This document shows, one piece after another, positions 42,190-63,726 of a stretch of DNA of 64,000 nt. The notes under the pieces were generated by a model. That model saw nothing but the letters and a program-made list of their open reading frames with translations. It was not told where the DNA came from and searched no databases. Origin of the DNA: Nitrospira sp. (GTDB taxonomy: Bacteria; Nitrospirota; Nitrospiria; Nitrospirales; Nitrospiraceae). The stretch covers positions 1-64,000 of the forward strand of contig JANDJE010000011.1 of assembly GCA_024331095.1 (NCBI GenBank), in the 5' to 3' direction. The translations under genes and the position numbers were made by a program. How positions within the stretch are numbered: the stretch's first letter is position 1; every line of letters starts with the position of its first letter.

Positions 42190-42651
42190 ATGGGTAAGGT
42201 CGAGCAAGTGGAAATTCAGGGGTTCCTTCCGCACCGCTATCCCTTTTTGCTGGTGGATCGCGTCAAGGAACTGGAGCCCGGCACGCGGGTGATCGCGATC
42301 AAAAATGTCACGGTCAACGAGCCGTTCTTTCAAGGGCACTTCCCCGGGCGGCCGGTCATGCCGGGGGTGTTGATCATCGAAGCGATGGCGCAGGCGGGCG
42401 GGGTCTTGGTGTTCAAGTCCGGATGGTCCTCCGGCAGACCGGTCATGTACATGACCGGCATCGACGAAGCGAAATTCAGAAAACCGGTCGTGCCCGGCGA
42501 TCAATTGCGGTTCGAAATCGAGGTGCTCAAAAAACGCCCGCCCTTTTGGAAAATGCAGGGGAAGGCGTACGTCGACGATGAGATGGTGTGCGAAGCGGTC
42601 GTCACGGCCATGGTGGCCGAGGACAAAGAGGCGGCAAAGAGCGGCAAATGA
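42190..42651 (+). CDS. fabZ: 3-hydroxyacyl-ACP dehydratase FabZ
   Basis: Hot-dog-fold enzyme of fatty-acid elongation. The 153-residue protein has FLPHRYPFLLVDRV, NEPFFQGHFPGRPVMPGVLIIEAMAQ with the catalytic His and Glu, and FRKPVVPGDQLRFE. It draws on the same 3-hydroxyacyl-ACP pool as LpxA, which follows, explaining the usual linkage. GAGGAG lies about 9 bases upstream of the ATG. Confidence 0.97.
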   Translation: MGKVEQVEIQGFLPHRYPFLLVDRVKELEPGTRVIAIKNVTVNEPFFQGHFPGRPVMPGVLIIEAMAQAGGVLVFKSGWSSGRPVMYMTGIDEAKFRKPVVPGDQLRFEIEVLKKRPPFWKMQGKAYVDDEMVCEAVVTAMVAEDKEAAKSGK

Positions 42652-42728: not shown

Positions 42729-43547
42729 GTGAAAATCCATCCAACGGCGATTGTCCATCCCAAAGCGAATCTCGCCGACGACGCCGAAATCGGTCCCTAT
42801 TGCATCATCGGCGAGCACGTCACGATCGGCAAAGGGACGCGGCTCTTGTCCCATGTCTCGATTGACGGGTGGACCGAGATCGGAGAGCGGAACGTGGTGC
42901 ATCCGTTCGCCTCGATCGGCGGTCCCCCGCAGCATCTGGGGTACCGCGGGGAACCCACCAAGGTCGTCATCGGCGACGACAACGTGATCCGCGAGTACGT
43001 GACGGTGAACCGGGCGACGGTGCAAGGGGGAGGGGTCACATCGATCGGTTCACGCAACGTCTTGATGGCCTATGTCCATGTGGCGCACGATTGCCGGCTC
43101 GGCAACCACCTCATCATGGCCAACGCGGCCAGTCTGGCCGGACATATCACGATCGACGATTACGCGATCATCGGCGGCCTGACCGGCATTCATCAATACG
43201 TTCGGGTCGGCGAATACGCGATGGTGGGCGGCTGTTGCGCCATCGGACAGGACGTGCCCCCCTTCATGCGGGCGGCCGGCGGCTATCGGGCGCATCTCTA
43301 CGGACCCAATACGGTCGGGTTGCAGCGGCACGGCTTTTCGATGGAGCGCATCGCCGTGCTCAGGAAAGCGTTCGATCTCCTTTTTCGGGAAGGACATCGT
43401 ATCGCCGAAGCGATGCGCCTGGCCAAGAAAGAATTTAAGGGCCATCCGGACGTGGCCAAAATCCTGACGTTCATGGAAGGCACCAAGCGCGGCATCTCGC
43501 GCGTGGTGAACGTTGATTTGGACATCGAGTTCGATCAAGAGGGGTGA
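42729..43547 (+). CDS. lpxA: Acyl-ACP:UDP-N-acetylglucosamine acyltransferase LpxA
   Basis: First step of lipid A synthesis. The GTG at 42729 has GGAGG six bases upstream and gives 272 residues, starting KIHPTAIVHPKANLADDAEIGPY; an ATG nine codons earlier is the alternative. Hexapeptide repeats run through residues 1-190, with HVAHDCRLGNHLIMANAASLAGHI (catalytic His region), GGLTGIHQYVRVG, and VGLQRHGFSMERI; a helical C-terminus follows. If the gnnA-like gene downstream is active, LpxA here may act on a 3-amino sugar substrate. Confidence 0.96.
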   Translation: MKIHPTAIVHPKANLADDAEIGPYCIIGEHVTIGKGTRLLSHVSIDGWTEIGERNVVHPFASIGGPPQHLGYRGEPTKVVIGDDNVIREYVTVNRATVQGGGVTSIGSRNVLMAYVHVAHDCRLGNHLIMANAASLAGHITIDDYAIIGGLTGIHQYVRVGEYAMVGGCCAIGQDVPPFMRAAGGYRAHLYGPNTVGLQRHGFSMERIAVLRKAFDLLFREGHRIAEAMRLAKKEFKGHPDVAKILTFMEGTKRGISRVVNVDLDIEFDQEG

Positions 43548-43560
43548 AACGATTCCGATT

Positions 43561-44412
43561 ATGACCGCATCGATGCCAGTGCAAGACGGCCGCATCGGTC
43601 TGATCGCCGGCAACGGCCGGTTTCCGATCATTTTCGCGGACAACGCCAAAAAGATGGGCTTGTTCGTCTCCGCGGTAGCGCATGAGGGCGAAACGGAGCC
43701 GGAACTGGAACGGCACGTCGATCGGATCCATTGGATCAAGATCGGACAGCTCAACAAGCTGATCAACGCCTTCAAGGGGGACGCCATCCGGCAGGCGGTG
43801 ATGTTGGGCGGGATCAGGAAGACCCACGTGTACAGTACCGTGCGTCCGGATTTTCGCGCGTTGGCGTTGGCGGCTCGGCTGACGTTGTGGAAGGACGACG
43901 ACATCCTTCGGGAAATCGCCGCCGAATTGGAGCGGGAAGGCATTTCCATTTGTGAATCCACGTTCGGCTTGCAGGGGATTCTGGTCGAGGAAGGCCCGCT
44001 GACGTCCCGCCGCCCCAACAAGAAAGAGTGGAACGACATCCGGTACGGGTGGGAAATCGCCAAAGAGGTCGGGCGCCTCGATATCGGCCAATGCGTCGTG
44101 GTCAAGGATCGGGTGGTCGTGGCGGTGGAGGCGGTCGAGGGAACCGACGGGGCGATCAAACGGGGCGGTGAGTTGGCGAAAGAAGGAGCCGTGGTGATCA
44201 AGCGCAGCAAGCCGCAGCAGGACTTGCGTTTCGACCTGCCGGCGGTCGGGCCCCGGACGATCGAGGTTATGGCATCGGTCAAAGCGGCCGTGCTGGCGGT
44301 CGAACCGGGTCGGACGGTGGTGTTGGATCGGGACGAGCTTGTGCGTCAAGCGGAACGGGCCGGGATTGCGGTCATCGGCGTGGCGGCCGGCGACGTCGAG
44401 CGCGAGGCATAA
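43561..44412 (+). CDS. lpxI: UDP-2,3-diacylglucosamine pyrophosphatase LpxI
   Basis: Cleaves UDP-2,3-diacylglucosamine to lipid X plus UMP; LpxI replaces the unrelated LpxH in many bacteria. 283 residues starting GRIGLIAGNGRFPIIFADNA, with the C-terminal DUF1009 core: LDIGQCVVVKDRVVVAVEAVEGTD, KRSKPQQDLRFDLPAVGP and VDRD-like end VVLDRDELVRQAERAGI. The ATG at 43561 is chosen; a second in-frame ATG lies four codons on. lpxH is not seen in the window. Confidence 0.93.
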   Translation: MTASMPVQDGRIGLIAGNGRFPIIFADNAKKMGLFVSAVAHEGETEPELERHVDRIHWIKIGQLNKLINAFKGDAIRQAVMLGGIRKTHVYSTVRPDFRALALAARLTLWKDDDILREIAAELEREGISICESTFGLQGILVEEGPLTSRRPNKKEWNDIRYGWEIAKEVGRLDIGQCVVVKDRVVVAVEAVEGTDGAIKRGGELAKEGAVVIKRSKPQQDLRFDLPAVGPRTIEVMASVKAAVLAVEPGRTVVLDRDELVRQAERAGIAVIGVAAGDVEREA

Positions 44413-44509: not shown

Positions 44510-45478
44510 ATGACCACATTGCGAGCGGGAGTCGTCGGCGTCGGGCATTTGGGTCAACACCATGCCCGGTTGTACGCGACGCTGCCGGACGTGACGCTCG
44601 TCGGCGTGACGGATCGGGACCGTGGAAGAGCCGAGTTGATCGCAAGTCGGCACGGCGCGCGAGCGTTCGAAACGGTATCGGATCTTCTTCCGGGCGTCGA
44701 TGTGGTCAGTGTGGCCGTTCCGACGTCGGCGCATTACGAGGTGGCGCGGGCTTGTCTTGAAGCGGGCAAGCACGTGTTGGTGGAAAAACCTCTTGCCGCG
44801 CGACTTGCCGAGGCGCAAGAGCTGGTCGAGCTGGCCAAGGCCAAGGGACGCGTGCTGCAAGTCGGTCATAGCGAACGGTTCAATCCCATCATGCAAACGA
44901 TGCGGCCGTACGTTCGGCGGCCGGCGTTCATCGAAGGCCATCGGATCGGCCCCTACAGCGAGCGGGGAACCGACGTCGACGTCGTGCTGGACTTGATGAT
45001 CCACGACCTCGACCTGGTGTTGTCCTTCCGGCCCGGTCCGGTTGAAGAGGTGCGGGCCGCGGGCGTGCCGGTCCTGTCGCCCACGATCGACATCGCCAAC
45101 GCCCGCATTCAATTTCAAAGCGGTTGTGTGGCGAACCTGACCGCCAGCCGGGTGTCGTTCACGAAGATGCGGCGGCTTCGTCTGTTTCAGCGAGACAGCT
45201 ATGTGTCGATCGATTTTCAATCCCGACAAGGGATCGTGGGGCGCCGATCCGGCGAGGCGGCGGGTAAACCGGGATTCGCGATCGAGGAATACAAAGGAGG
45301 CGACGACGAGCCTTTGAAGTTGCAGCTCGAATCGTTTGTTCGGTCGATCAGAAACGGCTCCCCCCCCGTCGTCTCCGGAGAAGATGGAGCGGCGGCGGTG
45401 GCCCTTGCTCATCAGGTCTTGGCGGCGATCGCTTCGTTCGTCCGGCGTCAGGAGGAACGGGAAGCGTTGGAAGCATAG
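44510..45478 (+). CDS. gnnA: Gfo/Idh/MocA oxidoreductase in lpx operon, GnnA-like
   Basis: 322 residues with an N-terminal NAD-binding fold (VVGVGHLGQHHARLY), the family motif HVLVEKPLA with the EKP lysine, and a C-terminal beta domain (LDLMIHDLDLVLSF with the HDxD-like motif). In Acidithiobacillus ferrooxidans GnnA (same superfamily, encoded beside lpxA/lpxB) oxidises UDP-GlcNAc at C3 so that GnnB can add an amino group, leading to lipid A with amide-linked chains at C3. Position between lpxI and lpxB supports this role; sequence alone only proves the superfamily. A DegT aminotransferase that could be GnnB is at 59170. Confidence 0.72.
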   Translation: MTTLRAGVVGVGHLGQHHARLYATLPDVTLVGVTDRDRGRAELIASRHGARAFETVSDLLPGVDVVSVAVPTSAHYEVARACLEAGKHVLVEKPLAARLAEAQELVELAKAKGRVLQVGHSERFNPIMQTMRPYVRRPAFIEGHRIGPYSERGTDVDVVLDLMIHDLDLVLSFRPGPVEEVRAAGVPVLSPTIDIANARIQFQSGCVANLTASRVSFTKMRRLRLFQRDSYVSIDFQSRQGIVGRRSGEAAGKPGFAIEEYKGGDDEPLKLQLESFVRSIRNGSPPVVSGEDGAAAVALAHQVLAAIASFVRRQEEREALEA

Positions 45479-45744
45479 GAGGCGTGGCGGGTGTCCGCAA
45501 ATGTCTCTTGCTCGTGCTTACGGGCGTCGTCTCCGATGAGGCGGATTTCGTCCAGGCCAAGAAGGGACAGTTAAGGGGTCGGTTAAGGAATTTCGGTTTA
45601 GGGCGGTTGCCTTTCAAGCGGCTCGAAGCCTCTTCTTCGAACATGAACGAGAAACCCGCGGCGTGAAGCTCCGAACTGGGCATTCGTTCCGTATCACGCA
45701 TCTTGAACGACAAATCGGGCGCAACTGCATCAGACGGTGACGTC

Positions 45745-46875
45745 ATGCCGCGCATTCTCATCGTGACCGGCGAAGCCTCCGGCGATCTTCACGGGGCCAA
45801 TCTTGCCAGGGCGTTGAGGGCGCGCGATCCCGACGTGGTGTTGGTTGGCATCGGGGGGGTGGCGATGAGGGACGCCGGGGTCCGATTGGTGGGCGAGTCC
45901 GGCCGTTTCGACGTGATCGGCATGGTCGGCCCGCTCATGATGCTGGGGGTCCTCCGGCGATTTTGGGCGGTTCGTCGATTGTTCAGGTCGGAGCCCTGGG
46001 ACGCGGTGGTGTTCATCGATCATCCGGGGTTGAACTTGCGGTACGCCTATTTCGCCAAGGCGGCGGGGCTGCGTGTCTTCTACTATATCGCGCCTCAAGT
46101 CTGGGCCTGGAGGCCGGGACGCATTCATTGGATCAAACGGCGGGTCGATCATGTGCTGGTCGTACTGCCGTTCGAAAAAGCCATTTACGATCGAGCCAAG
46201 ATCCCCTGCACGTTCGTCGGCCATCCCTTGTTGGACGCCGTCGCCTTTCGGCACGATCGTGAAGCGCTTCGCAAGTCGTTTGCCTTGACGACGGACGGTC
46301 CGGTCATCGCGCTGCTGCCGGGGAGTCGAAAAAGGGAAGTGGAATTGCTCTTGCCGGTCTTGATCGAGGCCGCGGAAAAGTTGGCTCAACGGGAGCCACG
46401 CGCGCGGTTTCTGTTGGCACAGGCCCCCACGATCGAGGATCGTCTGCTTCAGTCCCTGTTGCAAAAAAGCTCGGTTTCCGTCCAGGTCGTCAAAGGACGG
46501 GCCGGTGACGTCATGGCGGCGGCGGATTTGGCGTGGATCGCGTCGGGAACCGCGACGCTTCAGGCGGCGGTCATCGGCACGCCGTTGATCTTGGTGTATC
46601 GGACCAGCGCGCTGACGTTCTGGTTGGCGTTTTTTCTCATCCGGGTCCGATGGATCGGATTGGTGAATTTGGTCGCGGAGCGGACCGTCGTGCCGGAGCT
46701 GATTCAATCGGATGCGACCGGCCAGCGATTGTACGAGGAGGCCCGGCGCCTCTTGGAAGATCGATTCGCCTATGATGAAATGAAGCGCGGCTTGGCGAAG
46801 GTACGCGCGGCGTTGGGCGAGCCCGGCGCGTCGCTCAGGGCCGCGGAGGTCGTGTTGGCGTCATGTCGGGCATAG
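45745..46875 (+). CDS. lpxB: Lipid-A-disaccharide synthase
   Basis: GT19 enzyme joining lipid X and UDP-2,3-diacylglucosamine. 376 residues from the ATG at 45745 (a TTG at 45703 is also in frame). Motifs: RILIVTGEASGDLHGANLARAL, MGIGGVAMRDAGV-like VGIGGVAMRDAG, YIAPQVWAWRPGRI, LLPGSRKREVELLLP, and ASGTATLQAAVIGTPLILVYR. The 266 bp before it contain only a weak 60-codon frame. Confidence 0.97.
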   Translation: MPRILIVTGEASGDLHGANLARALRARDPDVVLVGIGGVAMRDAGVRLVGESGRFDVIGMVGPLMMLGVLRRFWAVRRLFRSEPWDAVVFIDHPGLNLRYAYFAKAAGLRVFYYIAPQVWAWRPGRIHWIKRRVDHVLVVLPFEKAIYDRAKIPCTFVGHPLLDAVAFRHDREALRKSFALTTDGPVIALLPGSRKREVELLLPVLIEAAEKLAQREPRARFLLAQAPTIEDRLLQSLLQKSSVSVQVVKGRAGDVMAAADLAWIASGTATLQAAVIGTPLILVYRTSALTFWLAFFLIRVRWIGLVNLVAERTVVPELIQSDATGQRLYEEARRLLEDRFAYDEMKRGLAKVRAALGEPGASLRAAEVVLASCRA

Positions 46876-56946: not shown

Positions 56947-57094
56947 GCATAACGCTCCTTTGTTTCGTATCAGGACTCAGTAGTACGTAGTTTGGCGCAT
57001 CGCGGTGTTTTTGCTTGACTCATATCTCTTCCTGTGTTCATATCATGAACGCTTTGAGGGCGATTTGAGGATTGAGCGGTTACGATTGAGAGGC

Positions 57095-57748
57095 ATGGAT
57101 CTTCAAGGCCAACGGGACCTTCTGTTGCTCACCGAGCTGGAGCGAGGTGAAGCGATCACCCAACGCTCGCTTGCAACCAAGCTGGGCGTGGCTCTGGGGC
57201 TCACGAACCTCTGTCTCAAACGGCTGGCGAGAAAGGGCTACATCAAGATCGCCACGATTCCTCCGCACCGCGTTCGCTATCTGCTCACGCCGCAGGGGTT
57301 TGCCGAGAAGTCCCGGCTGACGAGCGAATACGTGAAGCATTCCCTGTCGTACTACCGCGACACGCGACGGCGTCTGAAAGCAACGTTGGAAAAGCCGGTT
57401 CAATCGGGGGCGAAAAGACTGGCGATCTGCGGGACCGGCGAACTGGCCGAACTGGCGTATCTGACGCTGCGCGAGCTTGAGATCACCCTCGTGGGCTTCG
57501 TGGACGATCAGTCCGCGGGAACCTTTTTGTCGTATCCGGTCCGGCCGATCGCGTCGCTGAGAGAATGGGAATTCGACGGGCTGTTGATCGCCGATTTGGA
57601 GCGCGGCCCGCAAATCATGGCCCGGCTGGTGCGGCAAGGGATTCCGAAGGAGAAGATTTTCAGCATCGGCCTCGCCGCCGGCGCCTCCGCCTCTTGCGAC
57701 GTGAAACGCGCCGAAGCAACACAAGAACGACAGAGACAGACCGGATAG
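57095..57748 (+). CDS. Winged-helix regulator with Rossmann-like sensor domain
   Basis: 217 residues if the ATG at 57095 is the start; a GTG at 57005 would add 30, and the start is uncertain. The N-terminal MarR-like winged helix (QRDLLLLTELERGEAITQRSLATKLGVALGL, RLARKGYIKI) is followed by a fold with KRLAICGTGELAELAYL and VGFVDDQSAGTFL, like the PglD/CoA-binding type that senses nucleotides or sugar nucleotides. Such proteins are met at the head of exopolysaccharide loci, where they are thought to act as transcription regulators. It is read in the same direction as the MNT, HEPN and antiterminator genes. Confidence 0.75.
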   Translation: MDLQGQRDLLLLTELERGEAITQRSLATKLGVALGLTNLCLKRLARKGYIKIATIPPHRVRYLLTPQGFAEKSRLTSEYVKHSLSYYRDTRRRLKATLEKPVQSGAKRLAICGTGELAELAYLTLRELEITLVGFVDDQSAGTFLSYPVRPIASLREWEFDGLLIADLERGPQIMARLVRQGIPKEKIFSIGLAAGASASCDVKRAEATQERQRQTG

Positions 57749-57752
57749 ACCT

Positions 57753-58082
57753 GTGACTCCATCGATTGAGTCGGATCCCATCCTCCGTGCGTTTTTGGAA
57801 CGAATCGCTTCAGTCCGTCCGTTGATCAAACGGATCGTCTTGTTCGGTTCGCGCGCCAGGGGAACCCATCGGTCCGACTCGGATTATGATGTGCTCCTTG
57901 TGGTCTCTCGGAAAGATGACGCGTTGCTCGACGTCCTCTATGACGCGGTGATGGACATCCTGTTGGAGCACGGGCGGTTGGTGTCGTTGAAGGTGTTTCC
58001 GGAACGGGAATTTTCCAGATTGCAATCGTTGCGGACTCCCTTCATGGAGCAAGTGAGCCGGGAAGGAGTGCTCATTGGATAA
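57753..58082 (+). CDS. MNT-type minimal nucleotidyltransferase
   Basis: 109 residues with the core motif GSRARGTHRSDSDYDVLL (GS-x10-D-x-D), a complete metal-binding site, and a later acidic strand region. Partner of the HEPN gene that overlaps its 3' end by 8 bp. In known HepT/MntA pairs the MNT protein neutralises the HEPN RNase by transferring AMP groups. The start is a GTG at 57753, four bases after the regulator gene stop. Confidence 0.9.
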   Translation: MTPSIESDPILRAFLERIASVRPLIKRIVLFGSRARGTHRSDSDYDVLLVVSRKDDALLDVLYDAVMDILLEHGRLVSLKVFPEREFSRLQSLRTPFMEQVSREGVLIG

Positions 58083-58473
58083 GGCGCAACAGGAACTCAT
58101 CCGCGGTTATCTGGCCAAGGCGCGCGAGAAAGCGAGGGTGGCCCGCGACCTGTACGCCAAGGGAGAGTGGGACGACGCGATTTCCCGCGCCTACTATGCC
58201 GCCTACCACGCGGCGCAGGCGGCTCTCTTGACGGAAGGACAACGGGCGGACACCCACAAGGGCGTCGTGACCCTGTTCGGCCTGTTGCTGGTGAAAACCG
58301 GCAAGCTGGACAAACGGTGGGGAAAGCTGTTGAGCAACCTGAAAGACGATCGCGAAGCGGGCGACTACGACGCCTTGTCCTACTTGGATGAAGAAACCGC
58401 GCGTCGCGCCGTCCGGGAGGCGGACGAGTTCGTCGCGGCCGTTGATCGATACATAACCGGCCTTGCGTCTTGA
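58075..58473 (+). CDS. HEPN-domain protein (putative HepT-like RNase)
   Basis: 132 residues from a TTG at 58075. Four-helix HEPN pattern with AISRAYYAAYHAAQAALL, where R-x6-H matches the R-x4-6-H site of active HEPN RNases, and LKDDREAGDYDALSYLD. Overlap with the MNT gene implies coexpression and a toxin-antitoxin or regulatory pair. HEPN proteins without toxic activity also exist, so the role in this locus is open. Confidence 0.88.
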   Translation: MDKAQQELIRGYLAKAREKARVARDLYAKGEWDDAISRAYYAAYHAAQAALLTEGQRADTHKGVVTLFGLLLVKTGKLDKRWGKLLSNLKDDREAGDYDALSYLDEETARRAVREADEFVAAVDRYITGLAS

Positions 58474-58580
58474 GAGACGCCGAGTGTGTCGCCGGACAAG
58501 GAGCAGGGAAGTGCTTGCAGTGGCCGAAGGGGGGAACTGTAAGTGAGAGGGCGGAGCTGTGCCCGCAGGGTCGCGGATCC

Positions 58581-59189
58581 ATGGCCGTTGAAACGGCGGT
58601 TGAGATGAATCCTATCAATCGAACAGATCAAGCCCGAACGGATCAAGCCGACCAGTCCGTTTGCTGGTACGCCCTGCGCACAAAGTCGCGCCATGAGAAG
58701 GTGGTGCGGGATCAATTGGACAGGCAGGGCATCGAGCAGCTTCTTCCCACGGTTCGGCGCTTGAGCCAGTGGAAAGATCGCAAAAAGGAGATCGATGTTC
58801 CGCTGTTTTCCGGCTATTGCTTCGTGCGGTTCGGGAAAGGAACGAAGTCGTCGGTGCAGAAGGTCGCCGGTGTGGTGGAGATTGTGGGGAGCGGCGGACG
58901 CCCGGAACCGATTCCCGACGGCGAAATCGAAAACCTCAAAATGTTGATGTCGAGTGTGCTGCCGTACGATCCCCATCCTTATTTGCACGAGGGGATGGTC
59001 GTGGAAGTGGCTCGAGGTCCGTTACGGGGGGTGCGTGGTGTGTTGCTGCGTAAGGAGAAACGCCATCGTTTGGTGGTGGGAATCCGGTTGATTCAGCAGG
59101 CGGCGGCGGTGGAAATCGACGTGAGAGACGTGGAGCCGGTGAGCGGTTCATTAGAAACAAGGAGTGAATATGGCGGTCCCCTTACTTGA
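58581..59189 (+). CDS. NusG-family antiterminator of the UpxY/RfaH/LoaP type
   Basis: 202 residues from the ATG at 58581 (an ATG at 58605 is equally possible). NGN domain: CWYALRTKSRHEKVVRDQLDRQGIE, LPTVRRLSQWKDRKKE, PLFSGYCFVRF, and IVGSGGRPEPIPDGEI. The C-terminal KOW domain (GMVVEVARGPLRGVRGVLLRK) is present. Specialised NusG paralogues of this kind promote elongation through long polysaccharide operons. It overlaps the DegT gene by 20 bp and precedes rfbB, so it probably acts on this locus. The housekeeping nusG is not in the window. Confidence 0.9.
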   Translation: MAVETAVEMNPINRTDQARTDQADQSVCWYALRTKSRHEKVVRDQLDRQGIEQLLPTVRRLSQWKDRKKEIDVPLFSGYCFVRFGKGTKSSVQKVAGVVEIVGSGGRPEPIPDGEIENLKMLMSSVLPYDPHPYLHEGMVVEVARGPLRGVRGVLLRKEKRHRLVVGIRLIQQAAAVEIDVRDVEPVSGSLETRSEYGGPLT

Positions 59190-60309
59190 TCTGAAAGCGC
59201 ATCACGAGCCGATTCGCGAGGAGATCTTAAGCGCGTTGCGGCAGACCTTCGCGAGCAACCAGTTCATCCTGGGGCCGGATGTCGGCAAGTTGGAAGAGCG
59301 GGTGGCCGCGTACTGTCATGCTCAACACGGTATCGGCGTGACGTCGGGAACCGATGCGTTGTTGCTGTCGCTCATGGCGTTGGGAGTCGGTCCGGGCGAT
59401 GAAGTGATCACCCCCTGCTATTCGTTTTTTGCGACGGCTGGCGTCGTCGCCCGGCTCCATGCCAAACCGGTGTTCGTCGATATCGATCCCGTGAGCTTTA
59501 ACATCGATCCTTCGAAGATCGAAGCTGCGGTGACGCCGAAGACCAAAGCGATCATCCCCGTGCATTTGTACGGCCAGTGCGCCGAGATGACGCCGATTCT
59601 TGAGATCGCGCGGCGCCATGGTTTTTCCGTCGTGGAAGACGCCGCTCAAGCCATCGGAGCGGAATATCGCGACGGCCGGCGGGCCTGCAGCATGGGGACG
59701 GTCGGTTGCCTCTCGTTTTTCCCCAGCAAGAACTTGGGGTGCTTGGGAGATGGCGGAATGGTTGTCACAAACGACCGCGACCTGGCGGAGCGCCTGAAAA
59801 TTCTGCGCGTTCACGGGAGCCATCCCAAGTATTACCACAAAATGATCGGAGGCAATTTCCGGCTCGACACGATTCAGGCCGCGGTGTTGAACGTCAAATT
59901 GAATTATCTTGACGGATGGACGAAGCGCCGGCAGGATAATGCGGACCGGTATCGTTCATTGTTTCAGCAGAGCGGATTACTGAATCGGGAAGTCGTCCGG
60001 TTGCCCGAAGCGGTGTATCGCGAGTCCGGCGCGAAGCATCACCACATCTACAACCAGTTCGTGCTGCGGGTCGAGCGGCGCGACGAGCTGATGGCGCATC
60101 TGAAACGAAACGAGATCGGGGCCGAAATCTACTATCCGGTTCCCTTTCACCTCCAAGAATGTTTCGGGTACCTGGGATATCGCGAAGGAGACTTCCCCGA
60201 AGCGGAGCGGGCCGCTCGGGAGACCATCGCGATTCCCATTTATCCGGAACTCACGCCCGCTCAACAAACCGAGGCGGTGGAAGCCGTCGCATCGTTTTAT
60301 GCTCGATAG
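59170..60309 (+). CDS. DegT/DnrJ/EryC1-type sugar aminotransferase
   Basis: 379 residues from the ATG at 59170 with AAGGAG upstream. PLP-dependent: VPLLDLKAHHEPIREEIL, FILGPDVGKLEERVAAY, GVTSGTDALLLSLMALG, VVEDAAQAIGAEYRDG and the lysine in SFFPSKNLGCLGDGG. It turns a keto-sugar nucleotide into an amino sugar. In A. ferrooxidans the family member GnnB completes UDP-GlcNAc3N synthesis after GnnA; a gnnA-like gene is 14 kb upstream. It may equally make an O-antigen amino sugar, since it sits before rfbB. Confidence 0.9.
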   Translation: MAVPLLDLKAHHEPIREEILSALRQTFASNQFILGPDVGKLEERVAAYCHAQHGIGVTSGTDALLLSLMALGVGPGDEVITPCYSFFATAGVVARLHAKPVFVDIDPVSFNIDPSKIEAAVTPKTKAIIPVHLYGQCAEMTPILEIARRHGFSVVEDAAQAIGAEYRDGRRACSMGTVGCLSFFPSKNLGCLGDGGMVVTNDRDLAERLKILRVHGSHPKYYHKMIGGNFRLDTIQAAVLNVKLNYLDGWTKRRQDNADRYRSLFQQSGLLNREVVRLPEAVYRESGAKHHHIYNQFVLRVERRDELMAHLKRNEIGAEIYYPVPFHLQECFGYLGYREGDFPEAERAARETIAIPIYPELTPAQQTEAVEAVASFYAR

Positions 60310-61536: not shown

Positions 61537-62448
61537 ATGAGTCAAGATTCTCGATCCGGTCAGACGGTTAAAAGAAAAGGCATCATCCTGGCCGGAGGGG
61601 CCGGCACGCGACTGCATCCGGCGACCCTGTCGATCAGCAAACAGTTGCTCCCGGTGTTCGACAAACCGATGATCTATTATCCCCTCAGCACCCTCATGTT
61701 GGCGGGGATCAGGGACATTCTCGTCATTTCCACGCCGCAAGATACCCCGCGGTTCGAGCAGCTTCTTGGGAAAGGAGACCAGTGGGGGGCGCGGATTCAC
61801 TATGCCGTTCAGCCGTCGCCGGACGGGTTGGCGCAGGCTTTCCTGATCGGCGAATCCTTCATCGGGGACGATGTGTCGGCCTTGGTGCTGGGGGATAACA
61901 TTTTCTACGGCCATGATTTTCAACGTTTGCTGAACAGCGCGATGGCTCGCACCGACGGAGCCACGATCTTTGCCTATCACGTTCACGATCCTGAGCGATA
62001 CGGCGTGGCCGAATTCGACGGGCAAGGCAGGGTTCTGTCATTGGAGGAAAAACCCCAGAAGCCCAAATCGAACTATGCCGTGACCGGTCTCTACTTCTAC
62101 GATCGACGGGTGATCGAGTATGCCAAGAGCCTCAAACCGTCGGCCCGGGGCGAGTTGGAGATTACGGATCTGAATCGGCTGTATCTGCAAGAGGGACGGC
62201 TGCATGTCGAAGTCATGGGGCGGGGATATGCCTGGCTCGATACCGGGACGCACGAGTCATTGTTGGACGCCGGCCAGTTCATCGCCACGCTGGAACATCG
62301 CCAAGGGCTCAAGGTGGCTTGTCCGGAAGAGATCGCCTGGCGGCAGGGTTGGATCGATGCGGCCCAAGTGGAACGGCTGGCTCGGCCGTTGGCCAAGAAC
62401 GGCTACGGCAAATATCTGCTGCGAATCATCAAAGAAAACGTGTTCTGA
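61537..62448 (+). CDS. rfbA: Glucose-1-phosphate thymidylyltransferase
   Basis: First step of dTDP-rhamnose synthesis. 303 residues with a short extra N-terminus, then [73 protein letters not shown], and [15 protein letters not shown]. It ends IIKENVF, and its stop codon overlaps an ATG (TGATG) that opens a short rfbC-like remnant. The 3' end is repeated 733 bp further on. Confidence 0.97.
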
Positions 62449-62473
62449 TGCGGGCCACGCCGCTTGCCATCCC
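62420..62473 (+). repeat. Left copy of 54-bp imperfect direct repeat (rfbA end / rfbC start)
   Basis: Matches 63153-63206 at 49 of 54 positions, with the central 46 bp (62428-62473 against 63161-63206) differing at three. It spans the last codons of rfbA, the overlapping TGATG, and the first nine codons of an rfbC reading frame (MRATPLAIP). It marks the left edge of the inserted segment. Confidence 0.9.
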
Positions 62474-62552
62474 AAACGAACGGTCCCCTGTCGGAAAATG
62501 GTCGAAAGGACATGCGCGGTTAAGGGAAGCGGAGTTGTTCTCATGCCATTAG
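62448..62552 (+). pseudogene. Truncated rfbC start left of the insert
   Basis: An ATG overlapping the rfbA stop opens a 34-codon frame whose first nine residues (MRATPLAIP) equal those of rfbC at 63181, then diverges into unrelated sequence and stops at TAG. It is read as the remains of the original rfbC start that was separated from its gene. Confidence 0.7.
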
Positions 62553-62567
62553 ACTAGAAGAGCGCCA

Positions 62568-62819
62568 ATGGCTGTTCGGCTGCATCCTCACGCGTTGGAA
62601 CGACTACAAGAACGTGGTGGGACGGAGCAAGAGGTGAGGCTGACTGTGGAGGCTGGTGAGCACTTTGAGGCAAAGTTCGGTCGAACGGGCTTTCGTCGCA
62701 ACTTCCCGTTTGCGGGGACCTGGCAAGGAAAGATCTATGCAAACAGGCAGATAGAAGCCTATGCTGTGCAAGAGGGGAGCGACTGGGTCGTCATTACGGT
62801 AATCGTGAAATATTTCTAA
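62568..62819 (+). CDS. DUF4258 protein
   Basis: 83 residues. The family pattern is visible: LHPHALERLQERGGTEQEVRLTVE (H-x(2)-A-x(2)-R-M/L-like repeats) and a C-terminal beta hairpin ending VVITVIVKYF. DUF4258 proteins resemble small RelE-like toxins or cytotoxic repressors, and are often paired with a DUF2283 gene, as here. AGAAGAG offers a weak ribosome site. Function not shown. Confidence 0.8.
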   Translation: MAVRLHPHALERLQERGGTEQEVRLTVEAGEHFEAKFGRTGFRRNFPFAGTWQGKIYANRQIEAYAVQEGSDWVVITVIVKYF

Positions 62820-62834
62820 TTCGGAGACTGTGAA

Positions 62835-63077
62835 ATGAGGCTGACATACGATCCTACGTACAATGTTGCGTATATCCGACTCCACGAGAAAACGACCCCG
62901 GTAACTACCCTTAAGATCAGCGATGAGATGAATGTTGATGTGGCGCCGGACGGAACCGTCTACGGCATTGAGCTTCTCAATGCCAACGCGCAGTTGGCGG
63001 AAGATGGGGGAACTCTGATTCTGGAATTGGCGGGAAAACGTCAAGAGATTGCCCTTCGGGCACAAGACTTGACATGA
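62835..63077 (+). CDS. DUF2283 protein, partner of DUF4258
   Basis: 80 residues from the ATG at 62835 with GGAG upstream, 15 bp after the DUF4258 gene. Typical DUF2283 pattern: LTYDPTYNVAYIRLHEK and VDVAPDGTVYGIELLNANAQL. Likely the antitoxin-like partner of the preceding gene; this role is inferred from pairing. Its stop overlaps the start of the next small frame (ATGA at 63074-63077). Confidence 0.83.
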   Translation: MRLTYDPTYNVAYIRLHEKTTPVTTLKISDEMNVDVAPDGTVYGIELLNANAQLAEDGGTLILELAGKRQEIALRAQDLT

Positions 63078-63181
63078 GTCTGTCTGGTCATCGTCAAGGA
63101 CAGGTCGAGAAAGATCTGGATAGAAAGCCATACGACAGTGTCACGATCGACATGCGGAGCATCAAAGAAAATCTGTTCTGA
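63074..63181 (+). CDS. 35-codon chimeric frame ending in an rfbA tail
   Basis: ATG overlapping the DUF2283 stop, 35 residues, ending MRSIKENLF, which resembles the rfbA end LRIIKENVF. Its TGA overlaps the rfbC ATG (TGATG), recreating the coupling that rfbA had. It may be only a leftover of an rfbA 3' end, but the frame is open and could couple translation of rfbC to the inserted pair. Confidence 0.4.
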   Translation: MSLSGHRQGQVEKDLDRKPYDSVTIDMRSIKENLF

Positions 63182-63206
63182 TGCGTGCCACGCCGCTTGC
63201 CATCCC
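63153..63206 (+). repeat. Right copy of 54-bp imperfect direct repeat
   Basis: Partner of 62420-62473. The copy to the right carries the real rfbC start. Differences in the rfbA part are partly silent or conservative (Arg codon, Val to Leu), as if this copy came from another rfbA allele rather than a fresh target duplication. Confidence 0.9.
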
Positions 63207-63726
63207 CGACGTCGTCTTGCTTGAACCCCGGGTATTCGGAGATGACCGGGGGTTTTTCTTTGAAAGTTTCAACCAAGCCCGGTTCGAGGCGGCGATCGGC
63301 AAACCCATCGCCTTTGTCCAAGACAACCACTCCCGATCGGTCAAGGGGGTCTTGCGGGGGTTGCATTATCAGATTCGGCAACCGCAGGGGAAGTTGGTGC
63401 GCATCGTGGTGGGAGCCGTCTTCGACGTGGCGGTGGATCTACGCCGCTCGTCGCCGACGTTTGGTCGCTGGATAGGCGAGGTACTCTCTGCCGAGAACAA
63501 GCGGCAACTCTGGATCCCTGCCGGGTTTGCCCATGGATTTCTCGTGTTGTCGGAGGTCGCCGAATGTTTGTACAAAACGACCGACTACTATGCGCCGCAG
63601 CACGAGCGGTGCCTGATCTGGAACGATCCGACGATCGGCATCACCTGGCCGTTGGGGGGAGAGCCGATTCTGTCCGCAAAGGATCGGCAAGGTGTCGCGT
63701 TCGATCGAGCGGAACGGTTTGAATGA
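63181..63726 (+). CDS. rfbC: dTDP-4-dehydrorhamnose 3,5-epimerase
   Basis: Third step of dTDP-rhamnose synthesis. 181 residues, cupin fold: LLEPRVFGDDRGFFFESFNQ, FVQDNHSRSVKGVLRGLHYQ (with catalytic His), PQGKLVRIVVGAVFDVAVDLRRSS, and IPAGFAHGFLVLSE. Complete for the family. The start ATG overlaps the stop of the 35-codon frame. Confidence 0.97.
   Translation: MRATPLAIPDVVLLEPRVFGDDRGFFFESFNQARFEAAIGKPIAFVQDNHSRSVKGVLRGLHYQIRQPQGKLVRIVVGAVFDVAVDLRRSSPTFGRWIGEVLSAENKRQLWIPAGFAHGFLVLSEVAECLYKTTDYYAPQHERCLIWNDPTIGITWPLGGEPILSAKDRQGVAFDRAERFE

Follow-up and report, generated by a model that had tools for sequence, protein, structure and literature searches.

The lipid A of Bdellovibrio bacteriovorus was reportedly described by Schwudke in 2003 (a study cited in PMC5006992) as a GlcN3N disaccharide. 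In A. ferrooxidans, the enzymes of this chemistry are GnnA, a UDP-N-acetylglucosamine 3-dehydrogenase of the Gfo/Idh/MocA family (7BVJ/7BVK), and GnnB, a DegT-family aminotransferase. Granulibacter, whose lipid A contains GlcN3N, encodes a putative GnnA 44% identical to that of A. ferrooxidans (PMC8036547). In M. loti, gnnA and gnnB lie apart from each other and from the lpx genes (PMC5644692). Our literature search found no report on the lipid A of Nitrospira and no test of the substrate of a GnnA-like enzyme from Nitrospirota.

Here we describe a Nitrospira lpx operon that encodes a predicted GnnA, with a DegT-family aminotransferase gene further downstream. We put at about 0.65 the probability that this organism forms GlcN3N (amide) lipid A via GnnA and a DegT aminotransferase, the protein encoded at 59170 being the first candidate for the latter. 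It would be known chemistry in a lineage for which we found no earlier report, and the puzzle it poses is a universal gnnA set against patchy gnnB candidates.

The lpx gene cluster

The stretch of DNA analysed (the window; 64,000 nucleotides) is nearly all of a 64,587-base contig, C13, from an 80%-complete MAG of 2.6 Mb. Its lipid A genes lie on the + strand in the order bamA-ompH-ompH-fabZ-lpxA-lpxI-gnnA-like gene-lpxB-msbA-waaA-lpxK, with heptosyltransferase-like genes and a methyltransferase gene after lpxK. The features discussed below are as follows.

38655, + strand: bamA, then two ompH-like genes and fabZ
42190-42651, + strand: fabZ (NF000582, 3e-59)
42732-43547, + strand: lpxA, first acyltransferase (NCBIfam NF003657, 368 bits; TIGR01852)
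43513-44412, start at 43513 or 43561, + strand: lpxI, UDP-2,3-diacylglucosamine hydrolase family (LpxI_N/LpxI_C; PF06230, 7e-52; PF17930, 5e-38)
44510-45478, + strand: gnnA-like gene, 322 aa, predicted Gfo/Idh/MocA NAD-dependent UDP-GlcNAc 3-dehydrogenase (PF01408, 5.2e-33)
45748-46875, start perhaps at 45703, + strand: lpxB (TIGR00215, 4e-87; PF02684)
46863, + strand: msbA-type ABC transporter gene
48629, + strand: conserved ORF between the msbA-type gene and waaA
49386, + strand: waaA
50897-51979, + strand: lpxK, further downstream in this LPS cluster (PF02606, 1.5e-86)
58470-59189, + strand: NusG/RfaH-like gene overlapping the DegT start (PF02357, 5.7e-21; synteny with genomes G012 and G025)
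59170-60309, start at 59164 or 59170, + strand: DegT/DnrJ/EryC1/StrS protein, predicted sugar-nucleotide 3-aminotransferase, candidate GnnB (PF01041, 4.1e-120)

A first-pass annotation of this DNA had noted a gnnA-like oxidoreductase gene between lpxI and lpxB and a DegT gene at 59170. Both are present as it described them: the PF01408 reading frame lies between the end of lpxI at 44412 and lpxB from about 45748, and the DegT gene codes for a full-length PF01041 protein.

A probable GnnA in the lpx operon

The gene at 44510-45478 encodes a member of the GnnA subfamily of Gfo/Idh/MocA proteins, conserved and placed in the lpx operon. Among all PDB sequences searched with phmmer, the best match of the protein is A. 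ferrooxidans GnnA (7bvj/7bvk; E = 1.8e-61, 211 bits; 38-39% identity), and the runner-up, 3ezy, follows at 2.3e-26, weaker by 35 orders of magnitude. The AlphaFold2 model (pLDDT 94.6) is likewise closest to 7bvj, which is annotated as the UDP-N-acetylglucosamine 3-dehydrogenase GnnA of A. ferrooxidans (Foldseek, VIA-align), with Z 41.5 and an rmsd of 1.4 Å over 301 residues; the second entry scores Z 35.5 and Bordetella WlbA (3q2k) 33.9. The Gfo/Idh motifs are conserved, EKP (E92 K93 P94) with its lysine and DLMIHD with its D-x3-H pattern (D161...H165) being invariant in 20 homologues. In a maximum-likelihood tree, built by a quick method and containing several long branches, a branch with SH-aLRT support of 93 unites the window protein with A. 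ferrooxidans GnnA, GnnB-adjacent GnnAs and other lpx-operon GnnAs, and leaves on its other side nine other Gfo/Idh proteins, including the dehydrogenase of a Nitrospira fusion protein discussed below. Phylogeny and fold both place the protein with proven GnnA and not with unrelated Gfo/Idh dehydrogenases, the grouping that would have spoken against the first-pass annotation. The top NCBIfam model, the UDP-GlcNAc 3-dehydrogenase NF040723, scores 201 bits, under its 450-bit cut-off, which excludes only the archaeal equivalog and not GnnA. Based on these sequence and model comparisons, the assignment of the gene as gnnA is well supported and very probably correct.

The window gene resembles A. 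ferrooxidans gnnA in family, fold, length, the EKP and DLMIHDLD motifs and its place beside lpxA/lpxB. It differs in that no gnnB adjoins it and lpxI lies between lpxA and gnnA, and in that the activity of the window enzyme is predicted. The same gene is found in the lpx operons of Nitrospira, Magnetococcales, Desulfobacterota, Bdellovibrionota and others; in most of 80 loci from named genomes, it lies between lpxA(-lpxI) and lpxB or adjoins lpxB. Its recurrence in the lpx operon of several phyla argues that the placement is not due to chance. Locus L012, with the order lpxA-gnnA-DegT-lpxB, encodes a GnnA 66% identical to that of A. ferrooxidans, while Bdellovibrio-type genomes carry gnnA inside the lpx operon and a DegT gene elsewhere, an arrangement that, next to the GlcN3N lipid A reported for B. 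bacteriovorus, speaks for the pathway proposed below.

Within the window's own family (59 genomes: the window's MAG and 58 others of at least 90% completeness), gnnA is present in 55, and in all 55 with an assembled lpx operon. The four genomes without a match were considered as counter-evidence to a link between GnnA and DegT and rejected as such, the operon being absent or broken by a contig end: G005, G027 and G052 have no detectable lpxA or lpxB orthologues, and in G021 lpxB stands at a contig start. As gnnA and DegT are both nearly universal in the family, a presence/absence statistic is uninformative.

The DegT aminotransferase as a GnnB candidate

The DegT protein of the window spans positions 3-359 of the 360 of PF01041, and the solved proteins that it matches best are for the most part aminotransferases of the 3-ketosugar type (7b0d, DesV, QdtB and WbpE). 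Like GnnB, it is a full-length member of the 3-ketosugar group, and it is 44% identical to the DegT that adjoins gnnA in L012 and 45-46% identical to the gnnA-adjacent DegTs of L080 and L026. Unlike GnnB, it is encoded about 14 kb downstream of gnnA, beyond lpxK and the heptosyltransferase-like genes, with rmlB, rmlA and rmlC following immediately after it; its orthologues have another dehydrogenase partner; and in our trees it falls outside the A. ferrooxidans-type GnnB clade, in a Nitrospiraceae/Desulfobulbales clade of 3-ketosugar aminotransferases. The gnnA-adjacent DegTs themselves split over two clades, the window protein belonging to a third, so DegT phylogeny does not define GnnB. Most DegTs of Bdellovibrionota and Magnetococcales group with WbpE. 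A place beside gnnA is usual for gnnB without being required, M. loti being a case where the two are separate.

The family has two DegT types, which are sisters in the tree (support 99). The window type occurs in 17 family genomes (64-79% identity) and the second, which stands alone, for example beside ilvD, in 38 (53-59% identity to the window DegT); two genomes carry both, six carry neither, and 53 of the 59 have one or the other. Outside the family, the closest relatives of the window type are stand-alone Desulfobulbales genes adjoining a sigma-factor-like gene, and Desulfobulbales also carry gnnA in the lpx cluster. The arrangement in the window, gnnA in the operon without an adjacent gnnB and DegT elsewhere, is like that of the orphan gnnA of Bdellovibrionota, Magnetococcales and Desulfobulbales, from which Nitrospira differs in having its own pair of sister DegT types and some genomes with none.

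As to further DegT-like proteins, the MAG has an RfbH-type dehydratase encoded beside a CDP-glucose dehydratase-like gene (contig C60), one distant protein (C108) and otherwise weak matches; no further GnnB-like DegT was found in the 80%-complete assembly, from which a different GnnB may, given that completeness, be missing. Among the DegT-like proteins of this MAG, the 59170 protein is the leading candidate for GnnB. The GnnA/GnnB pair put forward in the first-pass annotation holds up for GnnA, on sequence, tree and fold, and is plausible for GnnB.

A dehydrogenase-acetyltransferase fusion beside DegT in relatives

In nine of the 16 loci with a window-type DegT, a 540-aa fusion of a Gfo/Idh dehydrogenase and a WlbB-like acetyltransferase is encoded directly upstream of it. 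The hexapeptide acetyltransferase domain matches the LPS acetyltransferase 3mqg (1.1e-63), which we take to be WlbB. The window DegT thereby resembles WbpE/WlbC, the aminotransferases for UDP-3-keto-GlcNAcA, in belonging to the same broad group and in having, in relatives, a neighbour with a 3mqg-type acetyltransferase domain. It departs from the WbpE/WlbC systems with WlbB in that the dehydrogenase part of the fusion had 3c1a and GnnA, not WlbA, as its matches, and in that the fusion was not found anywhere in the window's MAG. The fusion (for example at L160:7226-8845) is kept beside a 3-ketosugar aminotransferase gene in at least nine Nitrospiraceae genomes, and fusion and DegT could possibly form a compact pathway to a 2,3-diacetamido surface sugar.

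The presence of the fusion beside the window-type DegT in nine relatives points to another sugar as the product of DegT. However, the gene order HTH-NusG-fusion-DegT of G012 is shortened in the window, where the NusG-like gene overlaps the DegT start and the fusion is missing; in G025, too, the NusG-like gene and DegT form a pair that lacks it. Where DegT is kept without its usual partner, GnnA is the remaining candidate dehydrogenase, which favours a role as GnnB. A role for the window DegT as a QdtB/FdtB enzyme for a dTDP-3-amino sugar was also considered, and is weakened by the rmlB, rmlA and rmlC genes downstream being for a rhamnose precursor and by the orthologues lying beside the WlbB-like fusion.

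GnnA-bearing relatives without DegT

At E 1e-15, no DegT-family protein was found in G031 (99% complete, 8 contigs), G057 (99%) or G041 (94%); matches to GnnB in G031 and G057 are all weaker than 1e-5, and those in G041 are likewise trivial. G031 and G057 nevertheless carry GnnA. G031, a Nitrospira-like genome (loci L174, G031:C6, and L200, G031:C2), has gnnA in its lpx operon with GnnA and LpxA intact and conserved, and no DegT gene lies in the 40 kb around and downstream of that operon; its ilvD neighbourhood is syntenic with that of relatives, the sister DegT being cleanly absent. GnnA in these DegT-less congeners is under purifying selection: dN/dS between G031 and G020 is 0.17 for gnnA and 0.06-0.11 across the remaining fabZ-lpxB genes, the constraint on GnnA being somewhat looser than that on its neighbours. 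That G031 keeps GnnA without DegT implies either another aminotransferase there or another role of GnnA. It has to be considered that part of Nitrospira uses GnnA without a DegT-family GnnB, a non-homologous aminotransferase or another fate of the 3-keto sugar completing an undescribed lipid A pathway, although we regard this as quite improbable.

Proposed pathway and alternatives

In the pathway we favour, GnnA would most likely use NAD+ to oxidize UDP-GlcNAc at its 3-OH, giving a 3-keto sugar, the keto group of which a DegT-family aminotransferase, most likely the 59170 protein, would convert to an amine, giving UDP-GlcNAc3N. The LpxA of the operon would then acylate this amine, and LpxC, LpxD, LpxI and LpxB would carry the product on to a lipid A with amide-linked chains at position 3. 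The MAG yielded a single LpxA, a further weak match (C51) having the size of LpxD, so the chains are probably amide-linked at 3' as well. We infer the substrate, the aminotransferase partner, the selectivity of LpxA and the final lipid. Nitrospira LpxA has Q-H at the positions of E. coli Q73-D74 and N at that of H99. Of the lineages compared, Nitrospirota alone had the histidine at 74. These residues were dropped as a signature of the GnnA pathway, as the positions differ from one GnnA-operon lineage to another, D74 and H99 being kept in Magnetococcales.

GnnA may also feed GlcN3N lipid A with an aminotransferase other than the 59170 protein, either a DegT lost from the incomplete MAG or a non-DegT enzyme, in which case the 59170 protein would make a 3-amino sugar of the O-antigen. 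The fusion beside the orthologues of this DegT, its position just upstream of rmlB, rmlA and rmlC, and the existence of G031 and G057 are all in line with this alternative. Nonetheless, we consider it somewhat unlikely, given that the fusion is missing from the MAG, that G025 has the NusG-DegT pair without it, that the nearest relatives of this DegT outside the family are encoded by stand-alone genes of gnnA-bearing Desulfobulbales, and that the MAG holds no other GnnB-like DegT. An organism that makes UDP-GlcNAc3N could also have an LpxA that takes both sugars. Its lipid A would then have a hybrid or varying GlcN/GlcN3N backbone, of the kind made by Campylobacter jejuni. Such hybrid backbones are documented (PMC7956469; PMC3342949), and the candidates for the aminotransferase are unevenly distributed over the genus; however, in Capnocytophaga canimorsus the hybrid backbone is linked to two lpxA genes (PMC3342949), unlike the single LpxA of the MAG, and a mixed backbone here looks unlikely.

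A further alternative is that the Gfo/Idh enzyme was recruited elsewhere, for another sugar nucleotide or for regulation, and that the lipid A is of the ordinary GlcN type. In favour of this, our literature search found no substrate test from Nitrospirota, and the purifying selection on gnnA in DegT-less congeners would fit it. Yet sequence, tree and fold all have GnnA as clearly the closest proven homologue, and the gene lies between lpxA and lpxB in several phyla, including lineages with DegT adjacent, making such recruitment highly improbable. Our likelihoods for these readings do not sum to one, as the alternatives overlap and a mixed backbone would be compatible with either aminotransferase.

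If the favoured pathway to GlcN3N lipid A is correct, a whole lineage of nitrite-oxidizing bacteria would have a chemically robust, amide-rich lipid A that is probably alkali-resistant. The range of GlcN3N lipid A would extend to Nitrospirota, with one operon gene predicting it in several phyla. The contrast between a universal GnnA and a patchy DegT also makes the identity of GnnB a concrete, testable question.

Other features of the surface-sugar cluster

In several Nitrospira genomes, a winged-helix gene (57005-57748 in the window) and the NusG/RfaH-like gene (58470-59189) are conserved as a pair with which the surface-sugar cluster opens. Between the regulator gene at 57005 and the NusG-like gene, the window has a HEPN-domain gene (58075-58473), where G012 encodes a different small protein. 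Further downstream, a toxin-antitoxin-like DUF4258-DUF2283 pair (62420-63211) lies between rmlA and rmlC. On either side of it is a copy of a 59-bp direct repeat (88% identical) that takes in the end of rmlA and the start of rmlC, as if the pair had been inserted with a duplication.
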